From assembly GCA_958295925.1 (NCBI GenBank), contig OY282384.1:375572-439571 (forward strand): a stretch of DNA of 64,000 nucleotides. The letters are read 5' to 3'. The notes beneath the pieces were generated by a model. It worked only from the letters and a program-made list of their open reading frames with translations. It was not told the DNA's origin and did not search any database. Position 1 is the stretch's first letter. Each line of letters begins with the position of its first letter. The DNA comes from an uncultured Acidimicrobiales bacterium (GTDB taxonomy: Bacteria > Actinomycetota > Acidimicrobiia > Acidimicrobiales > CATQHL01). A program made the position numbers and the translations under genes. Below are positions 5,920 through 38,181 of this stretch, piece after piece.

Positions 5920-5931
5920 GGAGAGTTTAGA

Positions 5932-5980
5932 AGACTATTAGAGACTGGCCTAAAAGACCACTAGAGACCAGTCTAAAAGA
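5932..5980 (+). repeat. Imperfect 23-bp direct repeat with internal dyad upstream of pnkp
   Basis: Two copies of AGACyAyTAGAGACyrGyC followed by TAAA lie end to end, at 5932-5954 and 5955-5977. Overlaid on them is an inverted repeat, AGACTGG (5942-5948) against CCAGTCT (5968-5974). The pnkp ribosome site starts right after. This could be a repressor site or a leader hairpin controlling pnkp. Confidence 0.6.
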
Positions 5981-5993
5981 GGAAGAGAACGCC

Positions 5994-16077: not shown

Positions 16078-16104
16078 GGCAGCCAGCCCCCGAGGAGACC
16101 AGCC

Positions 16105-16437: not shown

Positions 16438-16511
16438 GACAGCGCCAACGCACCGGAACCCCAGGGCCGCTCCGTCCTTACCGAGAAACCGAAAAGGAGA
16501 ACAGACCGACC

Positions 16512-18668
16512 ATGGCCACCGAGACCAACCCGGCCCGCCGGATAATCCAGCTCCGCGAGGAACTGGAACAGCACAACCAGGCCTACCACGGCAGCGACGA
16601 CCCCGCCGTCTCCGACCAGGAGTACGACCAGCTCTTTCAAGAGCTACAACAGCTGGAAGCCGCCCACCCCCAGCTGAAGAGCGACCTGTCCCCCACCGGG
16701 AAGGTCGGCGCCCCCGCCAAGAACACCTTCCAGCAGGTCAGGCACGAAGAGCCCATGTTGTCCCTGGCAAATGCTCATTCAGAGCAGGACTTCCGCGACT
16801 GGCTGAAACGGGTCAACCCCAACAACCAACCCATGGCCTTCACCTGCGAACCCAAGATGGACGGATTGGCCGTCCGCCTGGAATACCGCAACGGAGTATT
16901 ACAACGAGCCGCCACGAGAGGCGACGGCCAGGTCGGCGAGGACGTCACCAACAACCTGCTGACCATCCCCGAAGTCCCCCGGCAGTTGAACTGGAGCCGG
17001 AATTATAAAGGCCACCCCGCCGACCCGGAGCCGGGCAGCACCGAATGCCCCGAATACCTGGACGTCCGAGGCGAGGTCTTCATGACCAAACGCTCCCTGA
17101 AAGAAGTCAACGTCAAGCGCATAGCCAAAGGCGAACCGGAACTGCTGAACACCAGGAACGCCGCCGCAGGCGGGCTGCGGCAGCTGGACCCCCGGGAGGC
17201 CAGAGAACGCCAGCTCTCCTTCTACGCCTATTCCTGGCGGAATCCCCCGGCCCGCGTAACCGGCCATCACCAGGGCCTGCAGCAACTGCAGCACGCCGGC
17301 CTGCCCACGGTGGACCGGCAGTTCCACTGCGAAACGGTCGACCAGGTCATCCGGCAGTTCAAGCAATTGCAGCAAGACCGCCAGTCCCTGGACTACGACA
17401 TCGACGGCATGGTCATCAAGGTCGACGACCTGACCACCCAGAACCAGCTGGGCAACGCCAGCCGGGAACCCCGCTGGGCCATCGCCTGGAAGTTCCCACC
17501 GGAAGGGGCGGTAACCACCCTGCTGGACATAGAAATCAGCCACGGCCGCTTCGGCCGACTGACCCCGGTGGCAGTCTTATCAGCCGTACAGCTCCATGGC
17601 ATCACCGTCCGCAGCGCATCCCTGCACAACGAGGAGGACATCCACCGCAAGAACCTCCGCATCGGCGACAAAGTAGTAGTCGAACGCGCCGGCGACGTGA
17701 TACCCCAGGTCACCCGCCCGGCCAACCCCGTCGACACCGAGAACTTCCCAATGTTCCAGATGCCCGCCGACTGCCCCAGCTGCGGGCAGAAAGTGACGAC
17801 GGTCCCCGGCGAAGTAGGCCACTGGTGCGAGAACGACGACTGCCCCAGCCGGCTCCCCGAGCAATTGACCCATTTCGTGGGCCGCAGCTGCATGGACATC
17901 GACGGCTTGGGCGAAACCTGGTGCAAGTTGTTAATTGAACACGGCCTGGTGTCCAACCCCGGCGACCTGTACCACCTGACCAGAGAGCAGCTGCTCACCC
18001 TGCCTCGCATGGGCAACAGCATGGCCACCCGCATCCTGAACGGCATCGAAGCCAGCCGGCACCGGCCTTTGAACAAGGTCTTCTACGGCCTGGGCATCTA
18101 CCGGCTAGGTAGAGACGTCTCCAAGACACTGATGGAGGTCTGTTCCTCAGTGCAACAGGCCCAGCAGCTGACTGTCGAACAACTGACCTGGCTGCCCAAC
18201 ATCGGAGGGACGATAGCAGAAGCCACCCAACGGGGGCTGCAACAACCGAGAGTGAACCACCTGCTGGAAAGAATGGCCGCCGGCGGGGCTGTGATGGCCA
18301 AACTGCCGGAAGACCGCCCCGGCTACGGGACAGTGGAAGCAACAAACCAAAGCGCCGTCCAAGCCGGCGCCGCACGCAACGAGGAGGAAAAGAGAACAAT
18401 GGAACAGTCCACACAAAGCAGAACCCTGAACGGACAGACCTACGTGGTCACCGGGAAGATCGAAGGCTACACCCGCACCGAGGTAGAAGGGCTGATCCAA
18501 CAGCACGGCGGCAGGGTCGCCTCCAGCGTCAATAAGAACGTCAACTGGCTGGTCGTCGGCGAGAAGGCCGGCAGCAAGCTGAAGAAGGCCCAGCAGCTGG
18601 ACATCGGCATCATGGACGCCAAGACCTTCTTCGCCCACGTAGAAGGAAGAATAAACTGGCCGGAATAA
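16512..18668 (+). CDS. ligA: NAD-dependent DNA ligase LigA
   Basis: 718 residues, slightly longer than the usual 670. It seals nicks in duplex DNA using NAD+. Domains in order: NMN-binding Ia (HNQAYHGSDDPAVSDQEYDQ), adenylation domain with nucleotidyl lysine in EPKMDGLAVR near residue 115, OB fold, four-cysteine zinc finger (CPSC...WCENDDCPSR near 420), helix-hairpin-helix repeats (MDIDGLGE, LPRMGNSMA, LPNIGGTIAEAT), and BRCT at about 633-718 (LNGQTYVVTGKIEGYTRTE). A charged linker of about 45 residues before the BRCT explains the extra length. All catalytic motifs appear intact. The frame is open far upstream to 15267, but that part overlaps another gene; the ATG at 16512 begins where the family begins. 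A hairpin terminator follows. Confidence 0.97.
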   Translation: MATETNPARRIIQLREELEQHNQAYHGSDDPAVSDQEYDQLFQELQQLEAAHPQLKSDLSPTGKVGAPAKNTFQQVRHEEPMLSLANAHSEQDFRDWLKRVNPNNQPMAFTCEPKMDGLAVRLEYRNGVLQRAATRGDGQVGEDVTNNLLTIPEVPRQLNWSRNYKGHPADPEPGSTECPEYLDVRGEVFMTKRSLKEVNVKRIAKGEPELLNTRNAAAGGLRQLDPREARERQLSFYAYSWRNPPARVTGHHQGLQQLQHAGLPTVDRQFHCETVDQVIRQFKQLQQDRQSLDYDIDGMVIKVDDLTTQNQLGNASREPRWAIAWKFPPEGAVTTLLDIEISHGRFGRLTPVAVLSAVQLHGITVRSASLHNEEDIHRKNLRIGDKVVVERAGDVIPQVTRPANPVDTENFPMFQMPADCPSCGQKVTTVPGEVGHWCENDDCPSRLPEQLTHFVGRSCMDIDGLGETWCKLLIEHGLVSNPGDLYHLTREQLLTLPRMGNSMATRILNGIEASRHRPLNKVFYGLGIYRLGRDVSKTLMEVCSSVQQAQQLTVEQLTWLPNIGGTIAEATQRGLQQPRVNHLLERMAAGGAVMAKLPEDRPGYGTVEATNQSAVQAGAARNEEEKRTMEQSTQSRTLNGQTYVVTGKIEGYTRTEVEGLIQQHGGRVASSVNKNVNWLVVGEKAGSKLKKAQQLDIGIMDAKTFFAHVEGRINWPE

Positions 18669-18771: not shown

Positions 18772-19485
18772 TCACGGCGAATTGTAATTGCGAGTCCAGG
18801 ACCGCAGCCGGGAAGTATAAAGCCAGCAGATGGAATTGTCCGAAGGAAGAGCATTAGTCGCATTCTGATTGAAATAGACCAGGATGTTATTGGCGTCGTC
18901 GCGGAAAGAACGGTTAATCTGCTTGGCGCCAGCCGCCCGGCCTACCCGCAGACCAATCGGCACCGCGACCCCGCCGATCTCAGAACGGGCGGAAGCGTGC
19001 AGCGGATCAGTATGGTCGTAACAAGAATGCTGCGGGCTTGTGAGAGTTGCCGCATCGGCAACGAAGGTAAGATTATTCGGCTTGATCCGGGGCGCCCAGA
19101 TGTCGGCGCTGCAGGCCTCCCTGGTCTGAATCAGGCGAATGACTTCCTGCATCCGAGCGCCGTTGGTGGCGCCACGCTGGGAAACCAGCTGGTCCTCCAG
19201 CAGCGAGTCGCACGCTACCTGTCCCTCGGTGACGATCGAAACACCTCCAGCCGGTTCGATGATCGCCTGACTGATAATCCTGGGTAGAACGAAGGCGGAA
19301 CCAGTGATAATGAGCCCAATGAAGGCCCCCATAAGCGCCTGACGAGCCTGCCCAGTCTTCTGTGGATCGCCGCTAGCCGTCATAAAAAGAAAGCCGGCAT
19401 AGATGAAGACTATGACGCTGACTCCACCAATGCCGAAAGCAAGAAAACGGGCTATGTTATTGATGAGATTAGCCATCTCTTCCAT
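18772..19485 (-). CDS. VirB2/TrbC-like pilin paralogue A (distal)
   Basis: 237 residues. Residues 1-130 are nearly the same in all four genes: MEEMANLINN, membrane helix 12-36 (LAFGIGGVSVIVFIYAGF), DPQKTGQARQAL turn, membrane helix 50-70 (GAFIGLIITGSAFVLPRI), then EPAGGVSIVTEGQVACDSLL and IQTREACSADIW. This two-helix hairpin is the plan of VirB2/TrbC pilins. After SADIW comes a variable segment containing SCYDH, a conserved VPIGLRVGRAAG block, RSFRDDANNILVYF, a second variable stretch, and CWLYTSRLRSW. Four cysteines could make two disulfides. It ends with an extra NSP. AGGTGA precedes the start. No cleavable signal peptide is obvious. Confidence 0.85.
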   Translation of the reverse strand: MEEMANLINNIARFLAFGIGGVSVIVFIYAGFLFMTASGDPQKTGQARQALMGAFIGLIITGSAFVLPRIISQAIIEPAGGVSIVTEGQVACDSLLEDQLVSQRGATNGARMQEVIRLIQTREACSADIWAPRIKPNNLTFVADAATLTSPQHSCYDHTDPLHASARSEIGGVAVPIGLRVGRAAGAKQINRSFRDDANNILVYFNQNATNALPSDNSICWLYTSRLRSWTRNYNSP

Positions 19486-19509
19486 AGAGACGTCACCTCA
19501 AAGGGAAAG

Positions 19510-20232
19510 TCAGTAGCTCCGCCCCCAAGAACGAAGACGAGCAAGGTAGAGCCAGCACACGGAGTTATCAGAAGGGAGGCGAGAGCCAGGATTACCAGTA
19601 TTAGTATCCTCCCAGAACAAGACAAGGATATTATTGCTGTCATCGCGGAAGCTACGCTTCACAGTATCAGCCCCAGCAGCGCGGCCATCACGAAGACCAA
19701 GCGGGACAGGGTTACCACCAACAGCATCCGTCTTAGCAGTTGCATCATCTGCCCAGCAGCTGCTAAGACCGGAGCCGTTAGCCGGGAAACTACCAGTAGG
19801 AGTAGCACCCCAACCAGAAGCATTAGTAAGAACCCGGGGGTTCCAGATGTCTGCAGAGCACTCTTGCCGATTCTGAATCAAACGGATGACTTCGTTCATG
19901 CGGGCACCATTATTCGCACCCCGCTGCGCTACCAGCTGATCCTCCAAGAGAGAATCGCAGGCAACTTGTCCCTCGGTCACAATCGAGACCCCACCAGCCG
20001 GCTCAATAATGGCTTGGCTGATGATACGGGGCAAAACGAAGGCCGCCCCCGTGATGATAAGACCAATGAACGCACCCATAAGCGCCTGCCGCGCTTGACC
20101 CGTTTTCTGCGGGTCACCGCTAGCCGTCATAAATAAGAAGCCCGCATAGATAAAGACGATGACCGACACGCCGCCAATACCGAAGGCTAAGAATCTAGCC
20201 ACGTTGTTAATGAGATTAGCCATCTCTTCCAT
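19510..20232 (-). CDS. VirB2/TrbC-like pilin paralogue B
   Basis: 240 residues; the same two-helix N-terminal half as its neighbours. The first variable segment (LTNASGWGATPTGSFPANGS then SCWADDATAK) is the longest of the four. The second has FWEDTNTGNPGSRLPSDNS. The conserved C-terminal blocks read VPLGLRDGRAAG, RSFRDDSNNILVLF and CWLYLARLRSW. The frame extends six residues upstream, but the ATG at 20232 matches the sibling starts and follows TGAGG. It is separated from A by 24 bp, so one transcript is likely. Synonymous differences from the siblings are many, so the duplication is not recent. Confidence 0.85.
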   Translation of the reverse strand: MEEMANLINNVARFLAFGIGGVSVIVFIYAGFLFMTASGDPQKTGQARQALMGAFIGLIITGAAFVLPRIISQAIIEPAGGVSIVTEGQVACDSLLEDQLVAQRGANNGARMNEVIRLIQNRQECSADIWNPRVLTNASGWGATPTGSFPANGSGLSSCWADDATAKTDAVGGNPVPLGLRDGRAAGADTVKRSFRDDSNNILVLFWEDTNTGNPGSRLPSDNSVCWLYLARLRSWGRSY

Positions 20233-20268
20233 AAAAGAAAACCTCACCAATGGAAAGTTAAGGACAGC

Positions 20269-20982
20269 TCAGTAGTCCCGTGACCAACTACGGAGACGAG
20301 CAGTATAAAGCCAGCAAACAGAGGAATCAGAAGGGAGACGAGCAGCATCTTCGACAGGACTGCTATGCGGCTCTTGAAAGAGGACGAGGATATTATTGGA
20401 TTCATCCCTGAAAGAACGAGGAACGACGGCACCACCAACTGCACGACTGACCCGCAAACCCAAAGGAACCTCAACAGAACCGATGGGACCAGATTGCGAA
20501 ACAGTACCAGTGCTGTTAAAGCAACTATTCTTATCCGCTGCGAGGGCAGCATCGAGAACGAAGCCGCCAGCAGTATCAATCACCTCAGGATTCCAGATGT
20601 CAGCAGAACACTCCTGCCGGTTCTGAATCAACCTGATAACCTCATTCATACGAGCAGCACTGTTGGCACCACGCTGGGCCACTAATTGGTCTTCCAACAA
20701 GGAGTCACAGGCAACCTGTCCTTCAGTAACGATGGACACACCACCGGCAGGCTCAATGATAGCTTGGCTGATAATCCTAGGCAGGACGAAAGCAGCCCCT
20801 GTAATGATAAGCCCAATAAAAGCCCCCATCAAAGCCTGTCGCGCCTGCCCAGTCTTCTGCGGATCACCACTGGCCGTCATAAATAAGAAGCCGGCGTAAA
20901 TGAAAACAATCACGCTGACTCCACCAATCCCAAAAGCGAGAAAGCGAGCTACGTTGTTGATGAGATTAGCCATCTCTTCCAT
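20269..20982 (-). CDS. VirB2/TrbC-like pilin paralogue C
   Basis: 237 residues, same plan. Variable segment 1 reads EVIDTAGGFVLDAALAADKN then SCFNSTGTVS; variable segment 2 reads FQEPHSSPVEDAARLPSD. The conserved VPLGLRVSRAVG block departs most from the GRAAG consensus. The N-terminal 130 residues are almost identical in protein to B and D although third positions differ widely, a sign of strong purifying selection on the membrane part. GAGGTGA precedes the start. It is 36 bp from B. Confidence 0.85.
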   Translation of the reverse strand: MEEMANLINNVARFLAFGIGGVSVIVFIYAGFLFMTASGDPQKTGQARQALMGAFIGLIITGAAFVLPRIISQAIIEPAGGVSIVTEGQVACDSLLEDQLVAQRGANSAARMNEVIRLIQNRQECSADIWNPEVIDTAGGFVLDAALAADKNSCFNSTGTVSQSGPIGSVEVPLGLRVSRAVGGAVVPRSFRDESNNILVLFQEPHSSPVEDAARLPSDSSVCWLYTARLRSWSRDY

Positions 20983-21010
20983 AGAAGAATCACCTCAAAG
21001 GGAAGGAAAC

Positions 21011-21700
21011 TCAGTAGTTCCGAGACCAGCTGCGCAGCCGAGAGCTGTAAAGCCAACAGATGGATTCATCAGAAGGCTTGGCACTCTCGAGGAAGTAAAC
21101 AACAATGTTGTTCGATTCGTCACGGAAAGCACGGTTAACAGGAAGAGCAGCGGCTGACCGCCCAGTGCGGAGACCAATAGGCACCTCTGTCTGCCCGATC
21201 AGAGCATCATCGGTAGCAGTAATAGCAGTCTGATAGCACCCATTCGCGGTATCACTGTGCGACGCAGTAACTACATAACTGCCGGTAAAGGCAGCCCCCA
21301 CCAGGGGCGACCAAATGTCAGCAGAACACTCCTGCCGGTTTTGGATCAGGCGAATGACTTCGTTCATCCGCGCCGCGCTGTTAGCCCCTCGCTGAGCAAC
21401 CAGCTGGTCTTCCAAGAGAGAGTCACAGGCCACCTGCCCCTCAGTCACGATCGACACACCACCAGCCGGCTCAATAATCGCCTGCGAAATAATCCGCGGC
21501 AACACGAAGGCCGCCCCGGTGATGATCAAGCCGATAAAGGCACCCATGAGTGCCTGCCTTGCTTGCCCAGTCTTCTGCGGATCACCGCTGGCGGTCATAA
21601 AAAGAAAGCCAGCGTAGATAAAGACGATCACGCTAACTCCACCGATGCCGAAGGCTAAGAATCTAGCCACGTTGTTAATGAGATTGGCCATCTCTTCCAT
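21011..21700 (-). CDS. VirB2/TrbC-like pilin paralogue D (promoter-proximal)
   Basis: 229 residues and the shortest; as the first gene of the minus-strand block it would be the most transcribed. Variable segment 1 (LVGAAFTGSYVVTASHSDTA, then GCYQTAITATDD) and a very short variable segment 2 (FLESAKPSDES) differ from the siblings. The last block is CWLYSSRLRSWSRNY. TGAGG lies upstream of the ATG. The 149 bp between this gene and the divergent 21850 gene must hold promoters for both directions, but no consensus box is clear. No other type IV secretion gene is adjacent. Confidence 0.85.
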   Translation of the reverse strand: MEEMANLINNVARFLAFGIGGVSVIVFIYAGFLFMTASGDPQKTGQARQALMGAFIGLIITGAAFVLPRIISQAIIEPAGGVSIVTEGQVACDSLLEDQLVAQRGANSAARMNEVIRLIQNRQECSADIWSPLVGAAFTGSYVVTASHSDTANGCYQTAITATDDALIGQTEVPIGLRTGRSAAALPVNRAFRDESNNIVVYFLESAKPSDESICWLYSSRLRSWSRNY

Positions 21701-22372: not shown

Positions 22373-22410
22373 CACAGCGTCACCACAGCGTCACCACAGC
22401 ATCACCACAG
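22373..22410. repeat. 11-bp tandem repeat, 3.4 copies
   Basis: CACAGCGTCAC twice, then CACAGCATCAC and CACAG. It lies between convergent genes and runs into the last bases of the transporter gene at 22402. Confidence 0.85.
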
Positions 22411-23487
22411 AACCAAGCAAGCCCCGGCAACGACCAGTCCCAGGAGCAACACCCGAGCCCCCGGCCCCAGGGCGTCCTGGAAGTGAACCAGGACATTGGC
22501 CACGATGACCACCAGCGTCCCCGCCACGAGGTACTCCCCACGCACCACCTGGGCCAACCCCAACAACAGCAGCCAGCACAGCGTCAACGGAGGAGTCAGG
22601 TAGAGCACCCCGTTCAACGCCAGATTGCGCATGAGCAGATTAGCCTGCCGCCAGGACAGGGACATGGCCACCGCCGGCCCCAGGCCCACCAGGAAACCGA
22701 CCAAGGCCACCGACCAGACCAGCGGCTCCCCCACCGCGAAGCCAACCGCCAGGTTGACCGGCGCCGCCGCCAGGACTGACACCAGCAGCGACACCGCCGC
22801 CCCGCAGAGGCCCAGCCCCGCCGGAGCCCCCGGCTGCCGCGCCAGAGCCGCCCCCAGGTCGGCGCCCCACTTCAGATTGAAAGCCACCAGGCCGGTCAGG
22901 AACATAGCCGCCAACGCCAGCCCCAGGCCCAACAAGGTAGACCGGAAAGCCCCATCGGCGAAGAGCAGCTGCCACCCAACCACCTGGCCACCCAAAGCCA
23001 AGAGAAACCCCAGCACCGTGACCAGGGCCATCCCGGCGACGAACCAGGTCATCGGACGATACCGCCCCTCGCCACGGAAGGCGAAGGCCAGGAGCGCCAC
23101 GCCGGAAATGGCCCAGGAGTCGAAAATCAACACGGACACAGTGGCGTCGACGTAACGGGTGGACCAGGAAAGCAGGGCGTAATCCCAGGTATTGACCAGC
23201 CCCAGGAGCAGGTACCGATTGGCCGGCCAGGAGAAGACCCGCGCCCGAATCAAGGCCCAAGCCGACGAAGTAAAAACCCACCGGCGGTAGAAGGCCAGCA
23301 GCAGCCCAGAGCAGCCAAGGCCGATACCCACCCGGTAGAAGCCGTTGAACAGGAAAGGAGCCAAGTCCCCGGCGAAGGCCGCCGCCACCGGCACGGTGGA
23401 AGCGCAGAGCATGCACACCAGGATCAGCCCCAAGGCAGCAGTATCACGACCGGGCGGAGCGGTAGAAGACAAAGAAGACTCCCCCAA
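22402..23487 (-). CDS. DMT-superfamily (EamA-like) transporter
   Basis: 361 residues with about ten hydrophobic helices and two-fold pseudo-symmetry, as in drug/metabolite transporters of the EamA type (TLGLILVCMLC-like first helix, then NGFYRVGIGLGCSGLLLAFY, and LNGVLYLTPPLTLCWLLLL in the second half, which resembles the EamA signature around a proline in helix 9). The substrate is unknown. The frame begins with TTG (MGESSLSSTA) and has a stop just upstream; no clear ribosome site is visible, so the start may lie a little further in. A single metabolite exporter on the opposite strand is out of keeping with its surroundings and may be cargo. Confidence 0.75.
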   Translation of the reverse strand: MGESSLSSTAPPGRDTAALGLILVCMLCASTVPVAAAFAGDLAPFLFNGFYRVGIGLGCSGLLLAFYRRWVFTSSAWALIRARVFSWPANRYLLLGLVNTWDYALLSWSTRYVDATVSVLIFDSWAISGVALLAFAFRGEGRYRPMTWFVAGMALVTVLGFLLALGGQVVGWQLLFADGAFRSTLLGLGLALAAMFLTGLVAFNLKWGADLGAALARQPGAPAGLGLCGAAVSLLVSVLAAAPVNLAVGFAVGEPLVWSVALVGFLVGLGPAVAMSLSWRQANLLMRNLALNGVLYLTPPLTLCWLLLLGLAQVVRGEYLVAGTLVVIVANVLVHFQDALGPGARVLLLGLVVAGACLVLW

Positions 23488-29224: not shown

Positions 29225-29272
29225 CAGCCCCAGGACGAACCAGTGCGGAACGGAGTGAGGAGGAGCAGTCCC

Positions 29273-30016
29273 ATGACAGCAAACACGACATCGAGGACCG
29301 AATCCACAGCGACAGCCATACCCTGGCGGAAGGAAGACCACTTCATTCCCAAGAAGGAAAGCGGCAGCGCTACAGAGAGACCAACCCCAGGCCAGCCAGC
29401 AACACCCAACACCCCAGTCTCAAGAACGACCACCCCAGCGGAACTGGAAGCCCTGGGCTGGCAGGTCAACTTCCAGGTGAACCCCGACACCCAGTCGGAA
29501 ACCGTCGCCGGCATCCAGACCCGAATACCCCACTGGCAGGAACTCAACCAAGCCGAGCGACTCTACCACCAAGCCGCCTACGGCTTCGACCATGAAGGCC
29601 GGCTGCAACTCCCAGCCGACCAGCTCACCAGCCGAGCCAGCAAGAGCAGCCACCACCAAGCCTCCCCGGCCCTGGAAGCCGTGCTGGACGGCAGGCTGCA
29701 GCACTCCACGGAATACCCCTATACCTATGGCCTCCCCAACAGGCCCCTGCCCAGCTGGGCCACAAGACTGCACCAGCTATTGCCAACAGCAGCCGAATAC
29801 TGGGTAGGCTTCTCCTACGACGACTCAGCACTGGCCTGGTTCCTGCCCGACCAGTCGCTCATCTACACCAACGAAATCGGATGGGGCATCCCCGGCCACC
29901 AGGAAGGAACCAGCTACTTCGAATTCGGAACCACGCTGCCCGAGCTATTCACCGCCTGGCCCATCGAGAACTACGAGGCCCGGCAGCCGGAGTGGACCCG
30001 CCCGCCGAAGGATTAG
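29273..30016 (+). CDS. Hypothetical protein with AYDxxGE-like unit
   Basis: 247 residues. A disordered Thr/Pro-rich N-terminus leads to LYHQAAYGFDHEGRLQLPAD and then WVGFSYDDSALAWFLPDQS and LIYTNEIGWGIPG, the same helix-then-strand order as in the 14992 protein. Function unknown. The ATG at 29273 follows GAGGAGGAGCAG and is better than the GTG-type start further upstream at 29243. It lies immediately before the nine-gene membrane array, 17 bp from its first member, and may be part of the same transcript. Confidence 0.6.
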   Translation: MTANTTSRTESTATAIPWRKEDHFIPKKESGSATERPTPGQPATPNTPVSRTTTPAELEALGWQVNFQVNPDTQSETVAGIQTRIPHWQELNQAERLYHQAAYGFDHEGRLQLPADQLTSRASKSSHHQASPALEAVLDGRLQHSTEYPYTYGLPNRPLPSWATRLHQLLPTAAEYWVGFSYDDSALAWFLPDQSLIYTNEIGWGIPGHQEGTSYFEFGTTLPELFTAWPIENYEARQPEWTRPPKD

Positions 30017-30033: not shown

Positions 30034-30564
30034 ATGAGAGACATGGAAAGGACACTAGACAAAGTCATACTAGGCGGCGGATTCCGGATCGGCGCCGTCT
30101 CCGTCATATTCGTGGTCTACATGACCTACTTCGCCATAACGGACAACGGAGGCCCCCACGGGCAAGTAAAGAGAACGCTGAACGCCGAGAAGGGGAGAAT
30201 CTTCCAGGCGATCAAGGACGACCGCCCCGGTACCGACCTGAGCCAGCTGACGCGGCGAACACCGTGGAGCTATACCTGCCAGGAGCACGAACGGACGCCG
30301 GCCAACCGGCACAACATGGCGGACAACCGGACAGGCGAAAGAGCCTACCTCTTCACCTGCCGTTTCTACACCACCCCGGACGGCTTCAAGATACAGGGTG
30401 TCTACTTCACCAGCGTAACCCCGGACCCCAGCAAGAATCCGCTAAGCGTCTTCGAACAGCCCCGCTGGCCGGTGACGCTCGCCTGGCTGAAAAAGGAATC
30501 CATCAGAATAGAACCGGTCAGCGGCCAGCTGAGCGTCTACCAAGCAGACGAAGAGGACAGATAA
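30034..30564 (+). CDS. Two-cysteine membrane protein array, member 1
   Basis: 176 residues. N-terminal anchor helix at about 14-36 (GFRIGAVSVIFVVYMTYFA), then RTLNAEKGRIFQAIKDDRPG and TDLSQLTRR, first cysteine in YTCQEHERT, DNR, and second cysteine in LFTCRFYTTPDGFKIQGVYF. The Cys-x26-Cys spacing and the C-x-x-Y...G-x-K...Y-F ending recur in the next eight genes. The domain after the helix is probably outside the cytoplasm, with the cysteines paired. The ATG at 30034 follows AAGGAAAAG. No known family. Confidence 0.75.
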   Translation: MRDMERTLDKVILGGGFRIGAVSVIFVVYMTYFAITDNGGPHGQVKRTLNAEKGRIFQAIKDDRPGTDLSQLTRRTPWSYTCQEHERTPANRHNMADNRTGERAYLFTCRFYTTPDGFKIQGVYFTSVTPDPSKNPLSVFEQPRWPVTLAWLKKESIRIEPVSGQLSVYQADEEDR

Positions 30565-30565
30565 C

Positions 30566-31099
30566 ATGAGCTACGCGCCAGGCGCCCAGAGCAGACCCGA
30601 GAAGACCGATTGGTGGGACATCGCCGCCGGGATTAGCCTGGCGCTGTGCCTATCCCCATTCCTAGCCATAGTCCTCTACGGAACAGCGCTCACAATCGAC
30701 GAAGCCGAGGACGGACCGCAGACAAGATTGAGCACCGCGATTGAGGCGGACAAAGCCAACATCATCCACGAGATCAAGAGGGCCCACCCCGGCGCCGAAC
30801 TAAGCCAGCTGAGCGCGAGCACCCCGATGGACCGCTACTGCGAATTACAGAGCAACACCGCCAAAAACCGGCACCGCCTGGGGGACAACCGAGTCAGCAG
30901 AGACTCCTCCCTCTACAACTGCCACCTCTACGCCACCGTCAACGGGCACAAGGTAGAGGCAATCTATTTCGTAGCTGTCGCCCCGCAAGCCGGCTGGCTA
31001 GGCCGATTCTTCCGGCAGACCTACCACGTTGAAGACAAATGGCTGATCAAAGGCTCCACCCGCATGGAGCCGACCCACACCGGCCGGGCAAAGAACTAA
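30566..31099 (+). CDS. Two-cysteine membrane protein array, member 2
   Basis: 177 residues, one base after member 1. Anchor helix at about 20-42 (IAAGISLALCLSPFLAIVLYG), IEADKANIIHEIKRAHPGAE, LSQLSASTP, then YCELQSNTAKNRHRLGDNR and NCHLYATVNGHKVEAIYF. Cys-x26-Cys. The tail GWLGRFFRQTYHVEDKWLIK is shared with member 3, so these two are the closest pair. An extra cysteine lies inside the anchor. Tight spacing implies translational coupling. Confidence 0.75.
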   Translation: MSYAPGAQSRPEKTDWWDIAAGISLALCLSPFLAIVLYGTALTIDEAEDGPQTRLSTAIEADKANIIHEIKRAHPGAELSQLSASTPMDRYCELQSNTAKNRHRLGDNRVSRDSSLYNCHLYATVNGHKVEAIYFVAVAPQAGWLGRFFRQTYHVEDKWLIKGSTRMEPTHTGRAKN

Positions 31100-31134
31100 G
31101 CCCGCCAGGGATGCAGACAGAAGGAGGAAAGCGC

Positions 31135-31680
31135 ATGAACCAGGCATTCCCCGCCCGAGGCCCAGCCAACCGGAATAGACCCGCGAAGGTAGATTGGGAA
31201 TACATCTTCGCCGGGAGCTTCCTACTGATGGTCGCAGTCCCCTTGGGCGGCGGATTACTCTACGCAACAGCCGTGATAGCAGACGAACTGCGGGACGGCG
31301 AGCACAAGTACCTGCGCCGGGCCGTGGCAGGAAATAAGGCCGACATCATCCACGACATCAAGAGGGCCCACCCGGGGACGGAGTTGAGCCAACTCACTAC
31401 AACCACGATGATGACCCGCCAGTGCGAGGTGGAAAGGAACACTCCAGAAAGCCGATACCGCCTGGGCGACAACCGGGTCAGCAAGGACGCCCGGTTGTGG
31501 AACTGCCAGCTGTACGCCACCGCCAACGGCCATAAAGTAGAGACCGGCTACTTCGTAGCCATAGGAAGAGATGGCGGCTGGCTCGGCCGATTCTTCGGGC
31601 CAAGCTACAAGATCGAAAGAGCTTGGGTACTAAAGGGAACCACCCGAGTGCAGCCAACCCACACGGGGAGTTGGAACTAA
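31135..31680 (+). CDS. Two-cysteine membrane protein array, member 3
   Basis: 181 residues. Anchor helix about 26-48 (FAGSFLLMVAVPLGGGLLYA), NKADIIHDIKRAHPGTELSQ, QCEVERNTPESRYRLGDNR, NCQLYATANGHKVETGYF, then GWLGRFFGPSYKIERAWVLK. Cys-x26-Cys. The two copies 2 and 3 match along their whole length, more than any others, so they arose by the latest duplication. GAAGGAGGAAAGCGC precedes the ATG at 31135; the frame is open further upstream but overlaps member 2. Confidence 0.75.
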   Translation: MNQAFPARGPANRNRPAKVDWEYIFAGSFLLMVAVPLGGGLLYATAVIADELRDGEHKYLRRAVAGNKADIIHDIKRAHPGTELSQLTTTTMMTRQCEVERNTPESRYRLGDNRVSKDARLWNCQLYATANGHKVETGYFVAIGRDGGWLGRFFGPSYKIERAWVLKGTTRVQPTHTGSWN

Positions 31681-31767
31681 CCCCACCAAGGAGCGCAGCG
31701 CCAGAGAACAAAGAGCCTAGCCCACGAAGACCGGAGCCACCGCCGGAAACCAGGATGGGAGGAAGGA

Positions 31768-32283
31768 ATGGCCAGCAGAGCAGCAGCGAAGAATCAGGAT
31801 AGACTGACCGGAGGCGACTGGGCCTGGATCATCGGACTCCCCCTCTTCTTCATACCCTTCTTCTACGCAGCCTTCGCCGGCATGTACGTCAAGAGCAGCA
31901 GCCTGCCGGGAGCGCTAGCCGAAAGCGCGGAGCGGGACCGCCAGAACATCCTCAGCGCCCTGCAGAAAGGCGGCAACGGCTATGAACTCAACCGCCTCAC
32001 CGCCGGCGACATCGCAGTCGACGACTGCCAGGTGCACGAGCAGAGCGCAAGAGAATACTACGAAGTAGCCAGCCTTCGAATAGGGCGGAACAACCACCTC
32101 ACCACCTGCCAGGTCTTCGCCGTAACCAACGGCTACCGCCTGAACGCGACCTGGGTCATGGAACGGGGAAGAGCACGGGCCGGCTTCTGGCCATGGGGCA
32201 AGGACATCTTCCCCGTCGTCGACGCCTGGATACAGGAGAACAGCCTAGTCGTAGAAGACGCCGGACGGCAGCTGAGGCGTTAG
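31768..32283 (+). CDS. Two-cysteine membrane protein array, member 4
   Basis: 171 residues. Anchor helix about 18-40 (WAWIIGLPLFFIPFFYAAFAG), then SAERDRQNILSALQKGGNGY and ELNRLTAGD, DDCQVHEQSAREYYEVASLR and TCQVFAVTNGYRLNATWVME. Cys-x26-Cys. The GNGYELxRL block and GFWPW tail are shared with member 9, so 4 and 9 form a second subgroup. GGGAGGAAGG precedes the ATG. It is 88 bp from member 3, one of the largest gaps in the array. Confidence 0.75.
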   Translation: MASRAAAKNQDRLTGGDWAWIIGLPLFFIPFFYAAFAGMYVKSSSLPGALAESAERDRQNILSALQKGGNGYELNRLTAGDIAVDDCQVHEQSAREYYEVASLRIGRNNHLTTCQVFAVTNGYRLNATWVMERGRARAGFWPWGKDIFPVVDAWIQENSLVVEDAGRQLRR

Positions 32284-32341
32284 CCAAAAGAAGAACAGCG
32301 AACCACGCCCGCAAAACCGGTCGCCTGGGAAGGACAAAGGC

Positions 32342-32920
32342 ATGAAGACGGAAGCAAGAGAGGCAGAGAGGGACCACCAGAAGAAGCCAGACAATCTCGC
32401 CGAAGAGAGCTTCGATAAGACGCTCCGCCAGACAAAGAAAGTCTTCGCCGCCCTGATCATCCTAGCCTTCGGCTTCATCACCTACCTCATGATGGATGCA
32501 ATAGAGATGAAGAACGACAACCCATTGACCACGGTAGAAACCAGCCTCAGGGCAGAGAAGGGAAGAATCGCCCAGGCGCTGCAGAACAGCCAGGCCAGCC
32601 CGGCCTTCGAAACAATAACCGATAAGAACACCCAGGTGGTCAATTGCCGAGAGGCCGGCGCCTACGCGGAAAACCAGGCGAAGGCCAACGACAAGATTGA
32701 AAGAGGCGCCCAGCTGCTCACCTGCGACCTATACGCAGGAGCCAGAGGGCAAAGAATAAGCGCCGAGTACTTCGCCGCCACCCGGGCCAGCCGGGAAGCC
32801 AACTTCATCTCCAGGCACTGGAAACCGAACCACATCATGTTCAAGCATTGGATCAACCGGGAGTCGATTAAGGTGAGCCAGGACAACCCGATCGACATCC
32901 CACTAACGGGAGAGAACTAA
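32342..32920 (+). CDS. Two-cysteine membrane protein array, member 5
   Basis: 192 residues. A 35-residue charged N-terminus precedes the anchor helix at about 39-57 (VFAALIILAFGFITYLMMDA). Then SLRAEKGRIAQALQNSQAS, VNCREAGAYAENQAKAND and LTCDLYAGARGQRISAEYFA. Cys-x25-Cys. Member 1 is its nearest relative by the RAEKGRI-x-QA block. The start follows GGGAAGGACAAAGGC. Codons here use more A (AGA, ATA, GCA) than the flanking genes. Confidence 0.72.
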   Translation: MKTEAREAERDHQKKPDNLAEESFDKTLRQTKKVFAALIILAFGFITYLMMDAIEMKNDNPLTTVETSLRAEKGRIAQALQNSQASPAFETITDKNTQVVNCREAGAYAENQAKANDKIERGAQLLTCDLYAGARGQRISAEYFAATRASREANFISRHWKPNHIMFKHWINRESIKVSQDNPIDIPLTGEN

Positions 32921-32942
32921 ACCTCAGGATAGAGAGGGAGAA

Positions 32943-33518
32943 ATGCAGAACAGCGAACCGGCAGCCAACGGAATACAAGCGGAGGGCAGCCCCGGAGCCA
33001 ACCCCATTCCGAAGCAGGAGAACAGCAGGGACGACAAAGTAGCCGAGATCGTCGGCTCGATAATGCTGATCCTGCCCTTCTTCCTGCTGGCCATACCCTT
33101 CAACCTGGCGCTGGACCACAGCGGGACAGCCGCATACGCCGCCTTCGAGGAGGGCCGTATAGAAGTAACACGGCAACTGGAGATAGCCACCGGCTCAGAG
33201 CCACGCACCGTGACAGACGTACAGCAGCAATGCAGCTACTTCACCTCAAGGGAGGGCAAACGCCGCCGGGAGACGTACCATTACGACCTACAGACGAGCC
33301 CGGACACCTGGATCCAAATGTGCGACGTACGCGCCCGCACCCCGAAGGGAACAATCCACACCACCTACCTGGCCCTCTACGATGACCCGCACCTGATAAA
33401 AAGCATCATCGGCCCGAACTGGAAGCTGCAGGAGACCCGCCTGGACCTACAGGACCTCACCGAAAAGAGCCCGGACAACCTGGTGCTAGTGAGAAATGCG
33501 AGCCGGGAAAGGAGGTAG
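32943..33518 (+). CDS. Two-cysteine membrane protein array, member 6
   Basis: 191 residues. Anchor helix about 37-60 (IVGSIMLILPFFLLAIPFNLA), EEGRIEVTRQLEIATGS, QQCSYFTSREGKRRRETYHY and QMCDVRARTPKGTIHTTYLA, then HLIKSIIGPNWKLQETRLDL. Cys-x29-Cys. The IIGPNWKLxExRLDLQ tail is common only to members 6 and 7. AGGGAGAA precedes the ATG. The stop codon lies within the ribosome site of member 7. Confidence 0.72.
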   Translation: MQNSEPAANGIQAEGSPGANPIPKQENSRDDKVAEIVGSIMLILPFFLLAIPFNLALDHSGTAAYAAFEEGRIEVTRQLEIATGSEPRTVTDVQQQCSYFTSREGKRRRETYHYDLQTSPDTWIQMCDVRARTPKGTIHTTYLALYDDPHLIKSIIGPNWKLQETRLDLQDLTEKSPDNLVLVRNASRERR

Positions 33519-33521
33519 CAA

Positions 33522-34094
33522 TTGCAGAATCACCAGGAGCCACCCATCAACCCCTTCAACCCGAAGAACCTCTTCACGCCCATGGGAGTCCCCGAAAGCC
33601 CCAACACCACGCCGTTCGAGTTCTTCGGCTACGCCTTCCTAGGCATCGGCTTCGTGGTATTCATGAGCCTCTTCCTACTCACATTGATGAACGACCTTTT
33701 CGACTCAGAATGGAAAGCTACCCAGCAGGCCTACCAGAAAGATTACGACGACGTGGAAGAGAAGCTGCAAGAAGCATTAGGCAAAGCAGAAATCATGGAG
33801 CTCCAAGAGCGGTGCGACTTCCTCCCCGGAAGGGAAAGACGCCCACTACGCCGGGACTACGAGTACCACCTCCGGACCGACGATGACACGACCATAAAAC
33901 TCTGCACCGTCCGTGGCCGGACGACCGAAGGCAGCTTCAAAACGAACTACCTGGCAGTTTTCGAAAGGCCCCATATCATCGGCAACCTGATCGGCCCGAA
34001 TTGGAAGCTGAAAGAAAGCAGGCTGGACCTCCAGGGAATAACCCATAGGGAAAACACCGAGCTAGTGGTGATACGAGGACCGGAGGAGACATAA
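33522..34094 (+). CDS. Two-cysteine membrane protein array, member 7
   Basis: 190 residues, starting with TTG. The choice rests on AAAGGAGGT ending a few bases before it, the strongest ribosome site in the array, which itself contains the stop of member 6. Anchor helix about 37-58 (FFGYAFLGIGFVVFMSLFLL), then LQERCDFLPGRERRPLRRDY, KLCTVRGRTTEGSFKTNYLA and LIGPNWKLKESRLDLQGI. Cys-x29-Cys. It is a clear sister of member 6. Confidence 0.72.
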   Translation: MQNHQEPPINPFNPKNLFTPMGVPESPNTTPFEFFGYAFLGIGFVVFMSLFLLTLMNDLFDSEWKATQQAYQKDYDDVEEKLQEALGKAEIMELQERCDFLPGRERRPLRRDYEYHLRTDDDTTIKLCTVRGRTTEGSFKTNYLAVFERPHIIGNLIGPNWKLKESRLDLQGITHRENTELVVIRGPEET

Positions 34095-34098
34095 CCCC

Positions 34099-34755
34099 AT
34101 GAAGAGCAGAGGCAAGAGAATAGGCGGAATCGTGGAGGCGATCGCTGCCGGCGTCGCCCTGACGATGCTCGCCGGGCTAGGGATAATAATAATGATCGGA
34201 CTAGCCCACGTCATCCTGGTCCCGAACAACCACCCCACAGCAGTGGCCGAGGCCGCCCTGGCAGCCGACGAGGATGAACTCAACAGAGTATTAACCCAAG
34301 GACTCCAAGCACCCCACCAAGGAAAGGCAGCGGCAATCACGGGCAGCTGCCGTCCCGGGCGAGGAAACCGGACACACATCTACCGGGACCTAGTAGCGAC
34401 AACCCAGGATGAAATGATCCAGGCTTGCCTCGCCGAGACCCAGCGCGGGGACAGCATCATCGCACTGAACTACATCGTGAAGATGGACAAGGACGTGGAG
34501 TTCCACCCGGACGTCGGCGACGATTGGAGCTGGAGCGCCTACGCCAGAGAAGCGAGGAGGGCCGCCTCCCATACCTTCAGCTTCAAGCGGAAGGACGTCA
34601 TACTGACCTACCTGGACGTAAACTCAGTAACGATAACGTCGGCCCCCAGCGTGACGCCCCTGAGCGAAGTACCGCCAAGCAGCATCACCACCGGGGCACG
34701 CGCCGAAATGCCCACCGGCCCACCAAATCTGGTAACTTTCCAGCCCAAAGATTGA
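34099..34755 (+). CDS. Two-cysteine membrane protein array, member 8
   Basis: 218 residues, the longest and most divergent member. Anchor helix about 14-38 (IAAGVALTMLAGLGIIIMIGL), LAADEDELNRVLTQGLQAPH, GSCRPGRGNRTHIYRDLVAT and QACLAETQRGDSIIALNYIV. Cys-x25-Cys. A Trp-rich insert (DDWSWSAYAREARR) and a Ser/Thr/Pro-rich tail of about 40 residues are its own. It starts four bases after member 7. Membership rests on position, topology and cysteine spacing more than on identity. Confidence 0.65.
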   Translation: MKSRGKRIGGIVEAIAAGVALTMLAGLGIIIMIGLAHVILVPNNHPTAVAEAALAADEDELNRVLTQGLQAPHQGKAAAITGSCRPGRGNRTHIYRDLVATTQDEMIQACLAETQRGDSIIALNYIVKMDKDVEFHPDVGDDWSWSAYAREARRAASHTFSFKRKDVILTYLDVNSVTITSAPSVTPLSEVPPSSITTGARAEMPTGPPNLVTFQPKD

Positions 34756-34805
34756 CGGACCCATAGCCATCAGAGAGAACCCTGCGAGCAGGACAAAGAA
34801 GAAAG

Positions 34806-35351
34806 ATGAGCAGCGCCCAACACTACGCACACAGCAAGGAGGAAACCGAGCACTGGGGAGCAGGGCATTAGCTAGCAATAGCAGGATGCGCAGCCATAGG
34901 ATTATTCATCTTATACACAGGCATCAGCATAATGGAGAAAGGCGGGCCATACCCGAGCCACAGCGTAGCCAGAAGAGAGATGCCACACCGGCAAGCCGAC
35001 ATAATCGCCGCGCTGCAGCGGGCCGGGAACGGCTATGAGCTGAGCCGCCTGAGCCCAGCCAACGTCCGGATCGACCGTTGCCAGATTTACCGAGGAAGCC
35101 AGCACCAAGGGGACTACGGCATCTTCTACGAGAAAGCAAGCCTCCGCATCGCGGAAGGAAACAGCATGGCAGCCTGCCCAGTGTATGCCGTCACCAACGG
35201 CTACTTAATAAAGGGAGAATGGATAATGGAAGTCGAACCGGCCACCCTACATTGGTGGCCCTGGAACAACACTGAGCCAAACATCACCAACGCGTGGCTG
35301 CAGGAAAGCACCCTCACCATTGGGGAGTCAGGAGACCAGCTCCGGCCATAA
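34806..35351 (+). pseudogene. Two-cysteine membrane protein array, member 9, interrupted by amber codon
   Basis: The frame from ATG 34806 (MSSAQHYAHSKEETEHWGAG) meets TAG at codon 22 (34869-34871), then continues without interruption for 159 codons to the TAA at 35351. The part after the stop has the anchor helix (LAIAGCAAIGLFILYTGISI), then ALQRAGNGYELSRLSPANVR, DRCQIYRGSQHQGDYGIFYE, ACPVYAVTNGYLIKGEWIME and WWPWNN: a sister of member 4. Cys-x31-Cys. An ATG at 34932 would make a shorter product without the anchor. A single nonsense mutation is the simplest cause, but the remaining frame has no other damage, so the event is recent or the codon is read through. Confidence 0.7.
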
Positions 35352-35462: not shown

Positions 35463-36761
35463 ATGAACACCTACGACAACACCCCCACCAGCCAAGCCCT
35501 GGCCATCGAAGCCCGCAGCGTCACACAAAGGGCCAACCAGGCCAACATCCAAACCCTGGACGCAGAGGCAGCCAAAGCAGCAACCAAAGCCGGACCCCAG
35601 CCCGGATTCACCGCCCCGATGAAGGTTGCATCAGAAACGCAGAAAGAGCGCCCCCACGAGCAGCCCAACCAGGGCAAGGCAGCAACGCCCCATGAGAGCC
35701 AAGCCCAAGCCGGCCGCACCCCGGAGGCCGCCCGCTCCCGGCCCCACGCCTACTTCGACGAGAACTACAACCTGGTCATCCGCGCCTCCGCCATGACCAA
35801 CTGCCGCCGCGCTTTGTGGTACACCGCGACAGGCCAGGAAGTAACGAACCCAAGGGACGACCAGTCCTACACCATCATGGAAGCCGGCACGGCGTTAGAA
35901 CCCGTCGTCCTGCGCGCCATGAGCCGCAGCGGGTGGAAGATAATCAGCCCCAAGGACCAGCCCCTGGTTTCGATAAAAATATCCGGCCACATCACCGTGA
36001 ACGGACACCCGGACGCCATGGGGCTGCATCCCCAGGACGCCAACGACCCGGAAGCGCCTCTTTCAATAATCGAAGTCAAGACCCGCGGGCCGGAACCCTT
36101 CAAACGTTGGCAGACCCTGGGCAGCGAGGTCAGCCACCCGGACGCGGCGGCCCAAGCCGCCTTCTACACCCTGGCCGCCTACCAGGAACCCCGGGACGCC
36201 GTCATCGCCAGCATGAACACCGGCAGCCGGGAATGGGACTACGAGGTAATCCCTTCCCACCGTATCGAACAGGCCTTCTACGTCTCCCAAACGAGGCTTC
36301 AGGCCTTGGAAGACCACCTACTGGAGTTCGGCCCCGACCCAACAGCGCTGCCCGACTACGACCACCGGCCCAGCAGCATCGAGTGCAAACGCTGCCCCTA
36401 TTTCGACATCTGCCAGAAGCCCAACCTTCCATCAATCCCAGCGGAGCAGCCGGCAATGAACCTGGAACCGGTGAGCCAGGAGCAGGCCGTCGCCGCCCTC
36501 CACGACTACGAAGAGCTGCAGGAGTCCATCCGGCAGTGGGAGAAGGAGAAGAAGGACGCGACGGAAACCCTCAAGCGCTACCTGGTCGAAAGGGACCTGA
36601 AGCGCGCCAAGCTGCAGGGCAAGGACAAGCCCCGCAGCATCAGCCTGGTGGAAACGCACCGTTTCAGCACCGACTACAAGCAGCTGAACAGCCTGCTGGA
36701 CCCGGAAACCCGGAAGGAGATAGTCTCCGAGTCCAGTTCGGAGTACCTCCGGGTAGGGTGA
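35463..36761 (+). CDS. Cas4-like PD-(D/E)XK nuclease with iron-sulfur cysteines
   Basis: 432 residues. The nuclease core lies at about 100-320: TNCRRALWYTATG (Cys 111), EAGTALEPVVLRAM, GHPDAMGLHP (Asp near 182), SIIEVKTRG (Glu and Lys near 203-205), AAQAAFYTLAAY (the QxxxY helix), and CKRCPYFDICQ near 307-316. One N-terminal plus three C-terminal cysteines is the Fe-S pattern of Cas4 and AddB-type exonucleases. Such proteins trim DNA ends in recombination. The first 95 residues are Ala/Gln-rich and disordered. A helical C-terminal 110 residues (LQESIRQWEKEKKDATETLK) is an addition to the family core. There is no Cas gene or CRISPR array nearby, so a recombination or replication role is likelier than adaptation. 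Confidence 0.85.
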   Translation: MNTYDNTPTSQALAIEARSVTQRANQANIQTLDAEAAKAATKAGPQPGFTAPMKVASETQKERPHEQPNQGKAATPHESQAQAGRTPEAARSRPHAYFDENYNLVIRASAMTNCRRALWYTATGQEVTNPRDDQSYTIMEAGTALEPVVLRAMSRSGWKIISPKDQPLVSIKISGHITVNGHPDAMGLHPQDANDPEAPLSIIEVKTRGPEPFKRWQTLGSEVSHPDAAAQAAFYTLAAYQEPRDAVIASMNTGSREWDYEVIPSHRIEQAFYVSQTRLQALEDHLLEFGPDPTALPDYDHRPSSIECKRCPYFDICQKPNLPSIPAEQPAMNLEPVSQEQAVAALHDYEELQESIRQWEKEKKDATETLKRYLVERDLKRAKLQGKDKPRSISLVETHRFSTDYKQLNSLLDPETRKEIVSESSSEYLRVG

Positions 36762-37716: not shown

Positions 37717-37960
37717 ATACCTCAGGATGAAGGACGCCACCCTGGTCTCCCACACGGCTAACAAGGCAACCGCGCCAGGGCAAGGGCACTGCGGCTACCA
37801 AGCCAGCTGGACCACCAGGAAAACCGAATGGCACGTCTTCACCATAAGCCGCCCCACCTGCGTCGATTGCCGCCAGGCCGTCAGGAAACCAGGGAGATCC
37901 GCAGCACGCTTAAAGGCGATAACCCAATGGCTGAGAGCCCAAGCCAGGACGACCAGATGA
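37697..37960 (+). CDS. Small Cys protein, CG...CVDC family, copy 2
   Basis: 87 residues: GHCGYQASWTTRKTEWHVF followed by PTCVDCRQAVRKPGRS and a basic tail. It overlaps copy 1 by 20 bases if the ATG at 37697 is used; ATGs at 37703 and 37727 are alternatives. The Trp/Tyr strand between cysteine pairs is shared with copies 1 and 3. The TGA overlaps the next ATG as ATGA. Confidence 0.6.
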   Translation: MPMTRPEYLRMKDATLVSHTANKATAPGQGHCGYQASWTTRKTEWHVFTISRPTCVDCRQAVRKPGRSAARLKAITQWLRAQARTTR

Positions 37961-38181
37961 AGCACATCCCCACCAACCATCCGCCGGAACTGCGCCGCGG
38001 CTACATCGCCTATTGCGGCTTCACCTGGCATTGGATAACCCCAGGCCCGGACGACATGTTCATCCCCGTCTACTGGAACGGCAGAGCCTTCTCCTTCCGC
38101 GGAAAGGTCGACTGCCCCGATTGCATCCATGCCAAGAAACCGGAATGGAGCTGGCCGGCAGGAGGGCCGAAGTTCAGCTAA
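37957..38181 (+). CDS. Small Cys protein, CG...CPDC family, copy 3
   Basis: 74 residues from the ATG that overlaps the previous stop (ATGA), behind AGGACG. Sequence: HPPELRRGYIAYCGFTWHWI then VDCPDCIHAKKPEWSW. An ATG at 37927 would add ten residues. All three copies keep CG and C-x-D-C and differ elsewhere, as expected for an old tandem triplication. A separate gene at 44753 has a related ending (GCPGC). Unknown function. Confidence 0.6.
   Translation: MKHIPTNHPPELRRGYIAYCGFTWHWITPGPDDMFIPVYWNGRAFSFRGKVDCPDCIHAKKPEWSWPAGGPKFS

Follow-up and report, generated by a model that had tools for sequence, protein, structure and literature searches.

A nine-gene array for predicted membrane-anchored, two-cysteine proteins on a giant Borg-like contig binned with an Acidimicrobiales bacterium

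Nine consecutive genes on the forward strand, eight intact and one broken, were found at positions 30034–35351 of a 64,000-nucleotide stretch of DNA (the window; bases 375572–439571 of contig OY282384.1, hereafter C1) in the assembly GCA_958295925.1 of an uncultured Acidimicrobiales bacterium. Feature coordinates are window positions unless C1 is named. The encoded proteins have a common layout, in which a single membrane helix near the N-terminus continues into a helical stalk and then into a small alpha/beta ectodomain whose two cysteines are invariant, and sequence comparison suggests that all nine likely form a single family, copy 8 being the least certain member. We tentatively read the array as a lineage-specific repertoire of membrane-tethered binding domains that may serve immunity or exclusion on a giant element of Borg-like architecture. 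Nine side-by-side versions of a family without relatives in the collections searched make it a test case for surface-protein repertoires on giant mobile elements.

The array and its protein family

The open reading frame (ORF) coordinates bore out an earlier reading made without database searches (the sequence-only reading), which had placed nine adjacent forward-strand genes in this interval. The copies were arranged as follows.

Copy 1: 30034..30564, + strand, 176 amino acids, cysteines at 82 and 109
Copy 2: 30566..31099, + strand, 177 amino acids, nearest to copy 3
Copy 3: 31135..31680, + strand, 181 amino acids, basis of the better structure model
Copy 4: 31768..32283, + strand, 171 amino acids, nearest to copy 9
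Copy 5: 32342..32920, + strand, 192 amino acids
Copy 6: 32943..33518, + strand, 191 amino acids, clusters with copy 7
Copy 7: 33522..34094, + strand, 190 amino acids, TTG start downstream of an aaaggaggt stretch
Copy 8: 34099..34755, + strand, 218 amino acids, most divergent, tied to copies 6 and 7 mainly through profile comparison
Copy 9: 34806..35351, + strand, in-frame TAG at codon 22, just ahead of the membrane helix

The genes run in a single direction and are separated by 1, 35, 87, 58, 22, 3, 4 and 50 bases, respectively, the last value taking the upstream ATG as the start of copy 9. All eight intact copies contained one predicted membrane helix followed by exactly two cysteines; copy 2 contained a third cysteine, within the helix. 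The two cysteines were invariant in all nine copies, with 25–31 residues between them, and were the sole fully conserved residues besides the start, most of the ectodomain being variable. An aromatic residue (Y or W) in the third strand was present in 9/9 copies and a tryptophan in the fourth strand in six of the nine. The anatomy given by the sequence-only reading was thus largely right: the single N-terminal helix, the anchored domain with its two conserved cysteines and the cysteine spacing were all recovered. Of the aromatic pair said to end the strand, the Y/W position was found; the residue after it is F, V, L or I, and the pair is therefore not general. The C-terminal domain probably lies outside the cytoplasm and carries a putative disulfide. 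Two cysteines behind one helix were also found in several other single-span C1 proteins, for example in the + strand ORFs at C1 16217–17059, 91071–91661, 116278–116940, 142014–142364 and 189316–191869; the array profile matched none of these.

Copy 9 departs from the intact plan that had been assumed for all nine genes and that holds for the other eight. Counted from ATG 34806, the TAG falls at codon 22 and stands directly before the membrane helix. No in-frame ATG, GTG or TTG was found between the TAG and ATG 34932, which lies behind the helix, and an uninterrupted ORF is available only from ATG 34932 (139 amino acids, without the helix). Decoding of TAG as an amino acid was considered and rejected, since TAG was the terminator of 22 of the 66 called genes of the window and no tRNA with a matching anticodon was found among the tRNAs listed for the C1 pieces. 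Copy 9 is broken, unless it is used as a soluble fragment.

Paralogy was examined by blastp, with E values that refer to a database of just the nine sequences. All 15 pairs within copies 1, 2, 3, 4, 5 and 9 were matched at E ≤ 4e-4 and copies 6 and 7 matched each other at 2e-33, with no significant pair between these two groups; copy 8 matched copy 7 in one direction only, at 0.003. In profile–profile comparison, the six-copy cluster reached a probability of 54 against copies 6+7 and 80 against copies 6+7+8, whereas copy 8 alone reached 1.7 with the six-copy cluster and 13 with copies 6+7. The profiles were then ranked against a control set of 516 other C1 proteins (80–500 amino acids, + strand calls only) together with the remaining copies. 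With the profile of 6+7, copy 3 was found at rank 1 (score 28.9, colinear over 112 columns) and copy 8 at rank 2 (26.8, colinear over 102 columns), the best background score being 21.8; copies 4, 5, 2, 1 and 9 were found at ranks 4, 50, 57, 105 and 393, respectively. In the reverse control, with the profile of six, copy 6 came first, copy 7 fifth and copy 8 sixth, and copy 6 (25.3) was the sole copy over the best background (22.9). By these comparisons paralogy is strongly supported for copies 1, 2, 3, 4, 5 and 9, moderately for 6 and 7 and weakly for 8.

Tandem expansion with wide divergence, as proposed from the sequence, was supported. The subgroups 2+3, 4+9 and 6+7 showed identities of 53%, 42% and 34–36%, respectively. 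A further subgroup of 1+5 did not stand, copy 1 being nearer to copies 2 and 3 (bit scores of 88.6 and 80.5) than to copy 5 (59.3). The ratio of nonsynonymous to synonymous substitution rates (dN/dS), a check that the sequence-only reading had called for, was estimated for seven pairs by a simple counting method. The closest pairs gave 0.38 (2/3), 0.36 (4/9) and 0.56 (6/7), and these pairs are under purifying selection; the distant pairs gave 0.70 (1/2), 0.52 (1/3), 0.47 (1/5) and 0.84 (7/8). Synonymous divergence (dS) was about 1 to 1.9 in all seven pairs, which implies old duplications and makes the ratios rough estimates. Eight of the nine frames were intact despite this divergence, which indicates that most copies are kept as proteins.

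The fold was predicted with AlphaFold2 for copy 3, from an alignment of all nine rows (mean pLDDT, the predicted local confidence, 75.8; predicted template-modelling score 0.60; ten-residue pLDDT means of 72–91 across residues 51–180). In the model, a long helix (membrane part and stalk) leads to a short helix and then to a sheet, strand 1 of which has a further helix behind it. Of the two cysteines, Cys97 was found on strand 1 and Cys124 on strand 2. A model of copy 7 from rows 7, 6 and 8 only was of low confidence (52.6) and showed the long helix and three strands ordered as in copy 3, with Cys98 and Cys128 on strands 1 and 2, respectively. Unrelated folds would have spoken against a single family; these models, from separate or partly separate rows, agreed on the long helix and the first strands. 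Foldseek gave no match for the copy 3 model at E ≤ 0.001 in PDB or in BFVD (viral models). By VIA-align comparison, in which all Z values were below 8, the look-alikes of copy 3 were a cystatin-fold design, affimers and adhiron (Z 6.7–6.0), a cortisol binder (8uqf, 5.9), the NTF2-like enzyme LinA (3s5c, 5.7), the VirB8-like chain 4o3v (5.4), TraM (4ec6, 5.3), OrfG (8s7l, 5.1), TcpC (3ub1, 4.9) and the colicin M immunity protein (2xgl, 5.1). For the low-confidence model of copy 7, TcpC (3ub1) came first (Z 6.3), and the next entries were designs, PBP2a and other NTF2-like chains. Such Z values are common without relationship and point to a fold class, not to a family; the prediction is of an NTF2-like/cystatin-like fold, for which the match scores were no more than middling.

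No known family was matched by the array proteins in Pfam, PHROGs, NCBIfam or PDB sequences, as the sequence-only reading had expected, and no housekeeping family was among the matches. The best match of the profile to PDB sequences, a LOV domain at E 0.02, was not accepted. The nearest Pfam line was SieB superinfection exclusion (PF14163), found with copy 7 only and rejected (E 0.0017; 18.4 bits, below the cut-off of 26). For the VirB8/TcpC families, no Pfam or NCBIfam line was obtained with the nine proteins at E ≤ 1, a range in which the HMMER filters hide most lines above 0.1. In its own genome, with C1 also searched in six frames, the array profile found the array alone (nine matches at E ≤ 1). 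It matched this genome only, as 1 of 60 relatives and 1 of 397 genomes of the order, and 2 of 396 genomes of the phylum, the second being a fragment in genome G210 (E 0.0037, with an internal stop), at a locus read in part, which was not accepted as a relative. These genome sets overlap and each includes the genome under study; in the rows listed for the phylum and order, at most eight first-look candidates were scored per genome. No relative was found in IMG/VR with the sub-alignments 2+3, 6+7 and 4+9 or in GTDB contigs with 2+3, by pattern-based searches that are weak for distant relatives. Phage records contained no convincing relative of copies 3 and 7, and plasmid records none of copies 3, 7 and 4; copies 1, 2, 5, 6, 8 and 9 were not used singly in these record searches. 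The profile search of genomes and metagenomes that had been suggested thus gave no convincing relative within the collections searched.

Possible functions of the array

The reading as a binding repertoire is favoured because anchored immunity proteins have the plan seen in the array (an anchor, a two-cysteine alpha/beta ectodomain, tandem diverged copies and no recognised partner gene), and we regard it as a possibility that falls short of an even chance. Successive tandem duplications would have built up the array on a giant Borg-like element of at least 643 kb. Each copy would be a single-pass protein whose C-terminal NTF2-like/cystatin-like domain, held by one disulfide, lies outside the cytoplasm and may capture or block one extracytoplasmic partner. 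Candidate partners are an envelope-acting toxin of a competitor or an incoming component of conjugation or a phage, and the copies may be retained as a repertoire of differing specificities, comparable to colicin M immunity and to orphan immunity arrays. The presence of binding folds (the cystatin-fold design, affimers, adhiron and 2xgl) among the look-alikes of copy 3 is consistent with this. So are the predicted helix and cysteine pair of every intact copy, the cysteines' invariance within a variable ectodomain, the cysteine-bearing strands 1 and 2 of both models, the purifying selection in the closest pairs, the short gaps between genes of one direction and the other multicopy families of C1.

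Orphan immunity arrays, known from the type VI secretion system (T6SS) and acquired interbacterial defence, are small diverged immunity genes retained as a repertoire. Unlike them, the array showed no association with an effector, a T6SS or a recombinase, for which no dedicated search was made. The colicin M immunity protein (Cmi) has only two cysteines, which form a disulfide, and one N-terminal anchor with a periplasmic sheet-round-helix domain (PMC8469651). The array copies resemble Cmi (2xgl) in the predicted anchor, the predicted alpha/beta domain and the two post-helix cysteines (8/8 intact copies), the disulfide being putative here. They differ in that Cys31 and Cys107 of Cmi are 76 residues apart, whereas 25–31 residues separate the cysteines of the array copies; no sequence similarity between Cmi and the array was found, and no colicin-like gene was seen beside it.

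Several observations weigh against a binding repertoire. No gene for a partner, a toxin or a bacteriocin was recognised beside the array, and 30 other window proteins compared with Pfam at E ≤ 0.01 gave no bacteriocin-like match, many of them matching nothing. The basic flank on the N-terminal side of the helix, which would fix the topology, was weak or absent in several copies (for example, none in copy 7). All structural Z values stayed under 8, unrelated rows stood among them, and both NTF2-like enzymes and VirB8-like proteins scored equally. The dN/dS values are compatible with binding faces with or without diversifying sites.

One alternative is general gene-family inflation, in which element-wide tandem duplication multiplied proteins of ordinary envelope function with no partner-specific diversification. 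The many gene families of C1 (the largest single-linkage group has 50 members), the purifying selection in the closest pairs and the one broken copy of nine agree with it; it is opposed by the eight frames that stayed intact at dS values of about 1 to 1.9, so most copies are being kept, and we regard it as unlikely. We judge it quite unlikely that the copies are VirB8/TraM/TcpC-like components of a type IV secretion system (T4SS) belonging to the element, membrane-anchored NTF2-like domains in several versions that build or adapt the transfer channel. VirB8-like proteins of monoderm T4SS combine a transmembrane (TM) anchor with an NTF2-like extracytoplasmic domain (PMC8012802). The array copies may be alike in this plan, with a predicted TM helix and a predicted NTF2-like fold; a VirB4-type ATPase and 13 T4SS_pilin matches are present on the same contig, TcpC (3ub1) tops the look-alikes of the low-confidence copy 7 model and VirB8-like chains score 5.4–4.9 with copy 3. 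These middling Z values are, however, common for such folds; about 180 kb separate the array from the VirB4 gene, which is on the opposite strand, no sequence match to VirB8-like families (TcpC, TraM, OrfG) was found, and the nine tandem copies are themselves a difference. So is the conserved cysteine pair, the words 'cysteine' and 'disulfide' not occurring in the main text of that paper.

A set of sensors or receptors, whose ectodomains bind small ligands in an NTF2-like pocket and signal or store them at the membrane, would fit the occurrence of LinA (3s5c) and the cortisol binder (8uqf) among the look-alikes. The N-tails preceding the helix (about 10 to 37 residues) leave no room for a signalling domain, and the best conserved columns are the cysteines and aromatic and aliphatic residues, not polar residues of a pocket; we consider such a set very unlikely. 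With regard to the binding repertoire, a broader version can be proposed, in which C1 is a giant, repeat-rich, nearly one-strand bacterial counterpart of the Borgs that has its own T4SS and keeps arrays of variable surface proteins (the nine-gene family and 12–13 pilin-like genes with constant N-halves and variable C-halves), the repertoire deciding which cells, rival elements or toxins can be met by the host of the element. This we put forward as a doubtful proposal.

The Borg-like contig and its conjugation genes

Contig C1 is 643,545 bases long and shares its bin with a 2.55-Mb contig (C2) containing a bacterial 16S rRNA gene and with one 8-kb contig. The sole small-subunit rRNA match of the bin is on C2, to the bacterial model, and C1 is linked to this host by binning only. 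On the + strand of C1, A exceeded T in 33 of 33 bins (AT skew of 0.19 to 0.50) and the GC skew was negative in all 33, whereas six samples of C2 had AT skews of −0.04 to 0.02 except for one end, at 0.17. All 653 gene calls of C1 were on the + strand, from a caller trained on + genes and blind to minus-strand genes; minus-strand islands were found to contain the T4SS, pilins and a DnaE-like ORF. A DnaE-type polymerase (PHROG E 4e-295) was found on the + strand at C1 527162–531514, for which scanning IMG/VR by pattern gave no relative, and a second DnaE-like ORF was seen by eye at C1 519030–522713 on the minus strand. C1 also carries ribonucleotide reductase, an NAD-dependent ligase, RNA repair enzymes, a VapE-type helicase and tRNA genes. 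A phage identity was considered and not accepted, the terminase-profile match having fitted helicase families better. PHROGs on 39 C1 proteins besides the array gave no capsid and no terminase-type line above chance use; this is a small fraction of the genes, and C1 may therefore still be a phage.

In the Borg literature (PMC9605863, PMC9879509, PMC12660748), Borgs are described with 25–54 perfect tandem repeat regions, A-rich one-strand coding and multicopy genes, the repeats inside ORFs having units divisible by three in all cases. By the Borg repeat criterion (perfect tandem repeats of at least 50 nucleotides and at least three units), C1 contained 31, with units of 6–60 nucleotides, 23 of them with a 12-base unit; none was within the window. 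Of these repeats, 22 were inside called ORFs, with a unit divisible by three in 20. A 120-kb sample of C2 contained two, which gives an enrichment in C1 of about threefold that is only indicative because the sample is small. All-against-all blastp of C1 showed many gene families, of which the array is one. The 50-member group is zinc-ribbon-like (HxW, CxxC, C-H, CG and CPDCL motifs) and centred on C1 541–584 kb, with outliers elsewhere, for example at window 37828–38181; 39 of its 101 candidates were scored, all 39 matching the profile, and none was found in 98 other genomes or in a pattern scan of IMG/VR. A C1 protein of 1424 amino acids was found in no other of the 396 genomes of the phylum, and a stalk motif rich in proline and threonine (P/T) was counted 79 times in C1 and four times in 120 kb of C2.

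C1 is alike to Borgs in its size range, nearly one-strand A-rich coding, repeat count, repeats within genes and multicopy genes. Borgs are linear and end in inverted repeats longer than 1 kb, whereas none was found at the ends of C1, where blastn of the first 20 kb against the last 20 kb gave no match and the contig may be incomplete. Borgs have two replichores, the second of which was not seen in C1, and use essentially one strand per replichore, whereas C1 has minus-strand gene islands and a T4SS. Their host is the archaeon Methanoperedens and they are without a conjugative system; C1 is in a bacterial bin and has a VirB4. With no terminal repeats, second replichore or archaeal host seen and with a conjugation gene present, C1 is Borg-like in architecture and is not classed as a Borg. 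No bacterial Borg-like element was found in the literature searched (open-licence PMC papers), which is not proof of absence. Giant bacterial extrachromosomal DNA is known in the Inocles, and C1 is alike to these and other giant bacterial extrachromosomal elements as giant bacterial DNA, by description only. If C1 proves to be a Borg-like element of a bacterium, one-strand coding, perfect in-frame tandem repeats and multicopy gene families, all known from archaeal Borgs, would have bacterial parallels, here accompanied by a conjugation-type ATPase.

The VirB4-type ATPase was found on the minus strand (PF19044, 3.3e-14; PDB 4ag5, 5.3e-20), and no VirB4 was found on C1 by PF03135 or by a Walker-motif scan of the + strand calls. 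At least 359 of its 722 matches in plasmid records were from Enterococcus, Lactococcus and lactobacilli. On the same strand, 13 T4SS_pilin (PF18895) matches occurred in five places. Twelve pilins had four cysteines each, and their pairwise identity averaged 94% across the first ~120 residues and 52% beyond them; judged from these sequences, the set is possibly a variation system. The loci were as follows.

T4SS locus: C1 220.2–231.6 kb (L014:202–11645), − strand, VirB4-type ATPase with a VirB3/PrgI-like protein and a 1799-amino-acid VirB6-like multi-span protein (the latter two by eye)
T4SS_pilin places: C1 117.1–120.2, 240.8, 354.5–355.2 and 468.0–470.3 kb and window 18772–21700, − strand
Four tandem T4SS_pilin (PF18895) genes: window 18772..21700, − strand, near-constant N-half and variable C-half, context outside the array

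The T4SS locus also contained P/T-rich proteins, and the ends of one of them resemble pilin C-halves by eye.

Neighbouring genes and other observations

The array was flanked by two genes on the same strand.

Upstream gene: 29243..30016, + strand, no Pfam match at 0.01, 17-base gap to copy 1
Downstream gene: 35463..36761, + strand, Cas4/RecE-like PD-(D/E)XK nuclease, starting 111 bases past copy 9

With flanking gaps of 17 and 111 bases, the array is probably part of a longer transcription unit that includes the upstream gene. The promoter scan gave no clear site ahead of copy 1, and a purine-rich stretch was seen by eye a few bases before several start codons. Compared with 13 flanking genes, A was more frequent in the array at codon position 1 (0.31 vs 0.24) and position 3 (0.20 vs 0.16) and lower at position 2 (0.31 vs 0.34); the more A-rich codons noticed in the sequence-only reading were thus found at two positions, modestly, and not at the second.

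Elsewhere in the window, a Hen1-like and Pnkp-like RNA repair pair was present at 3910–9062 (+ strand), and a LigA ORF at 15267–18668 (+ strand) extended about 420 residues N-terminally beyond the first ligase domain, its true start probably being later. Repeated DMT/EamA-like transporter ORFs were seen by eye at window 22402–23487 (− strand) and in several other minus-strand ORFs of C1.

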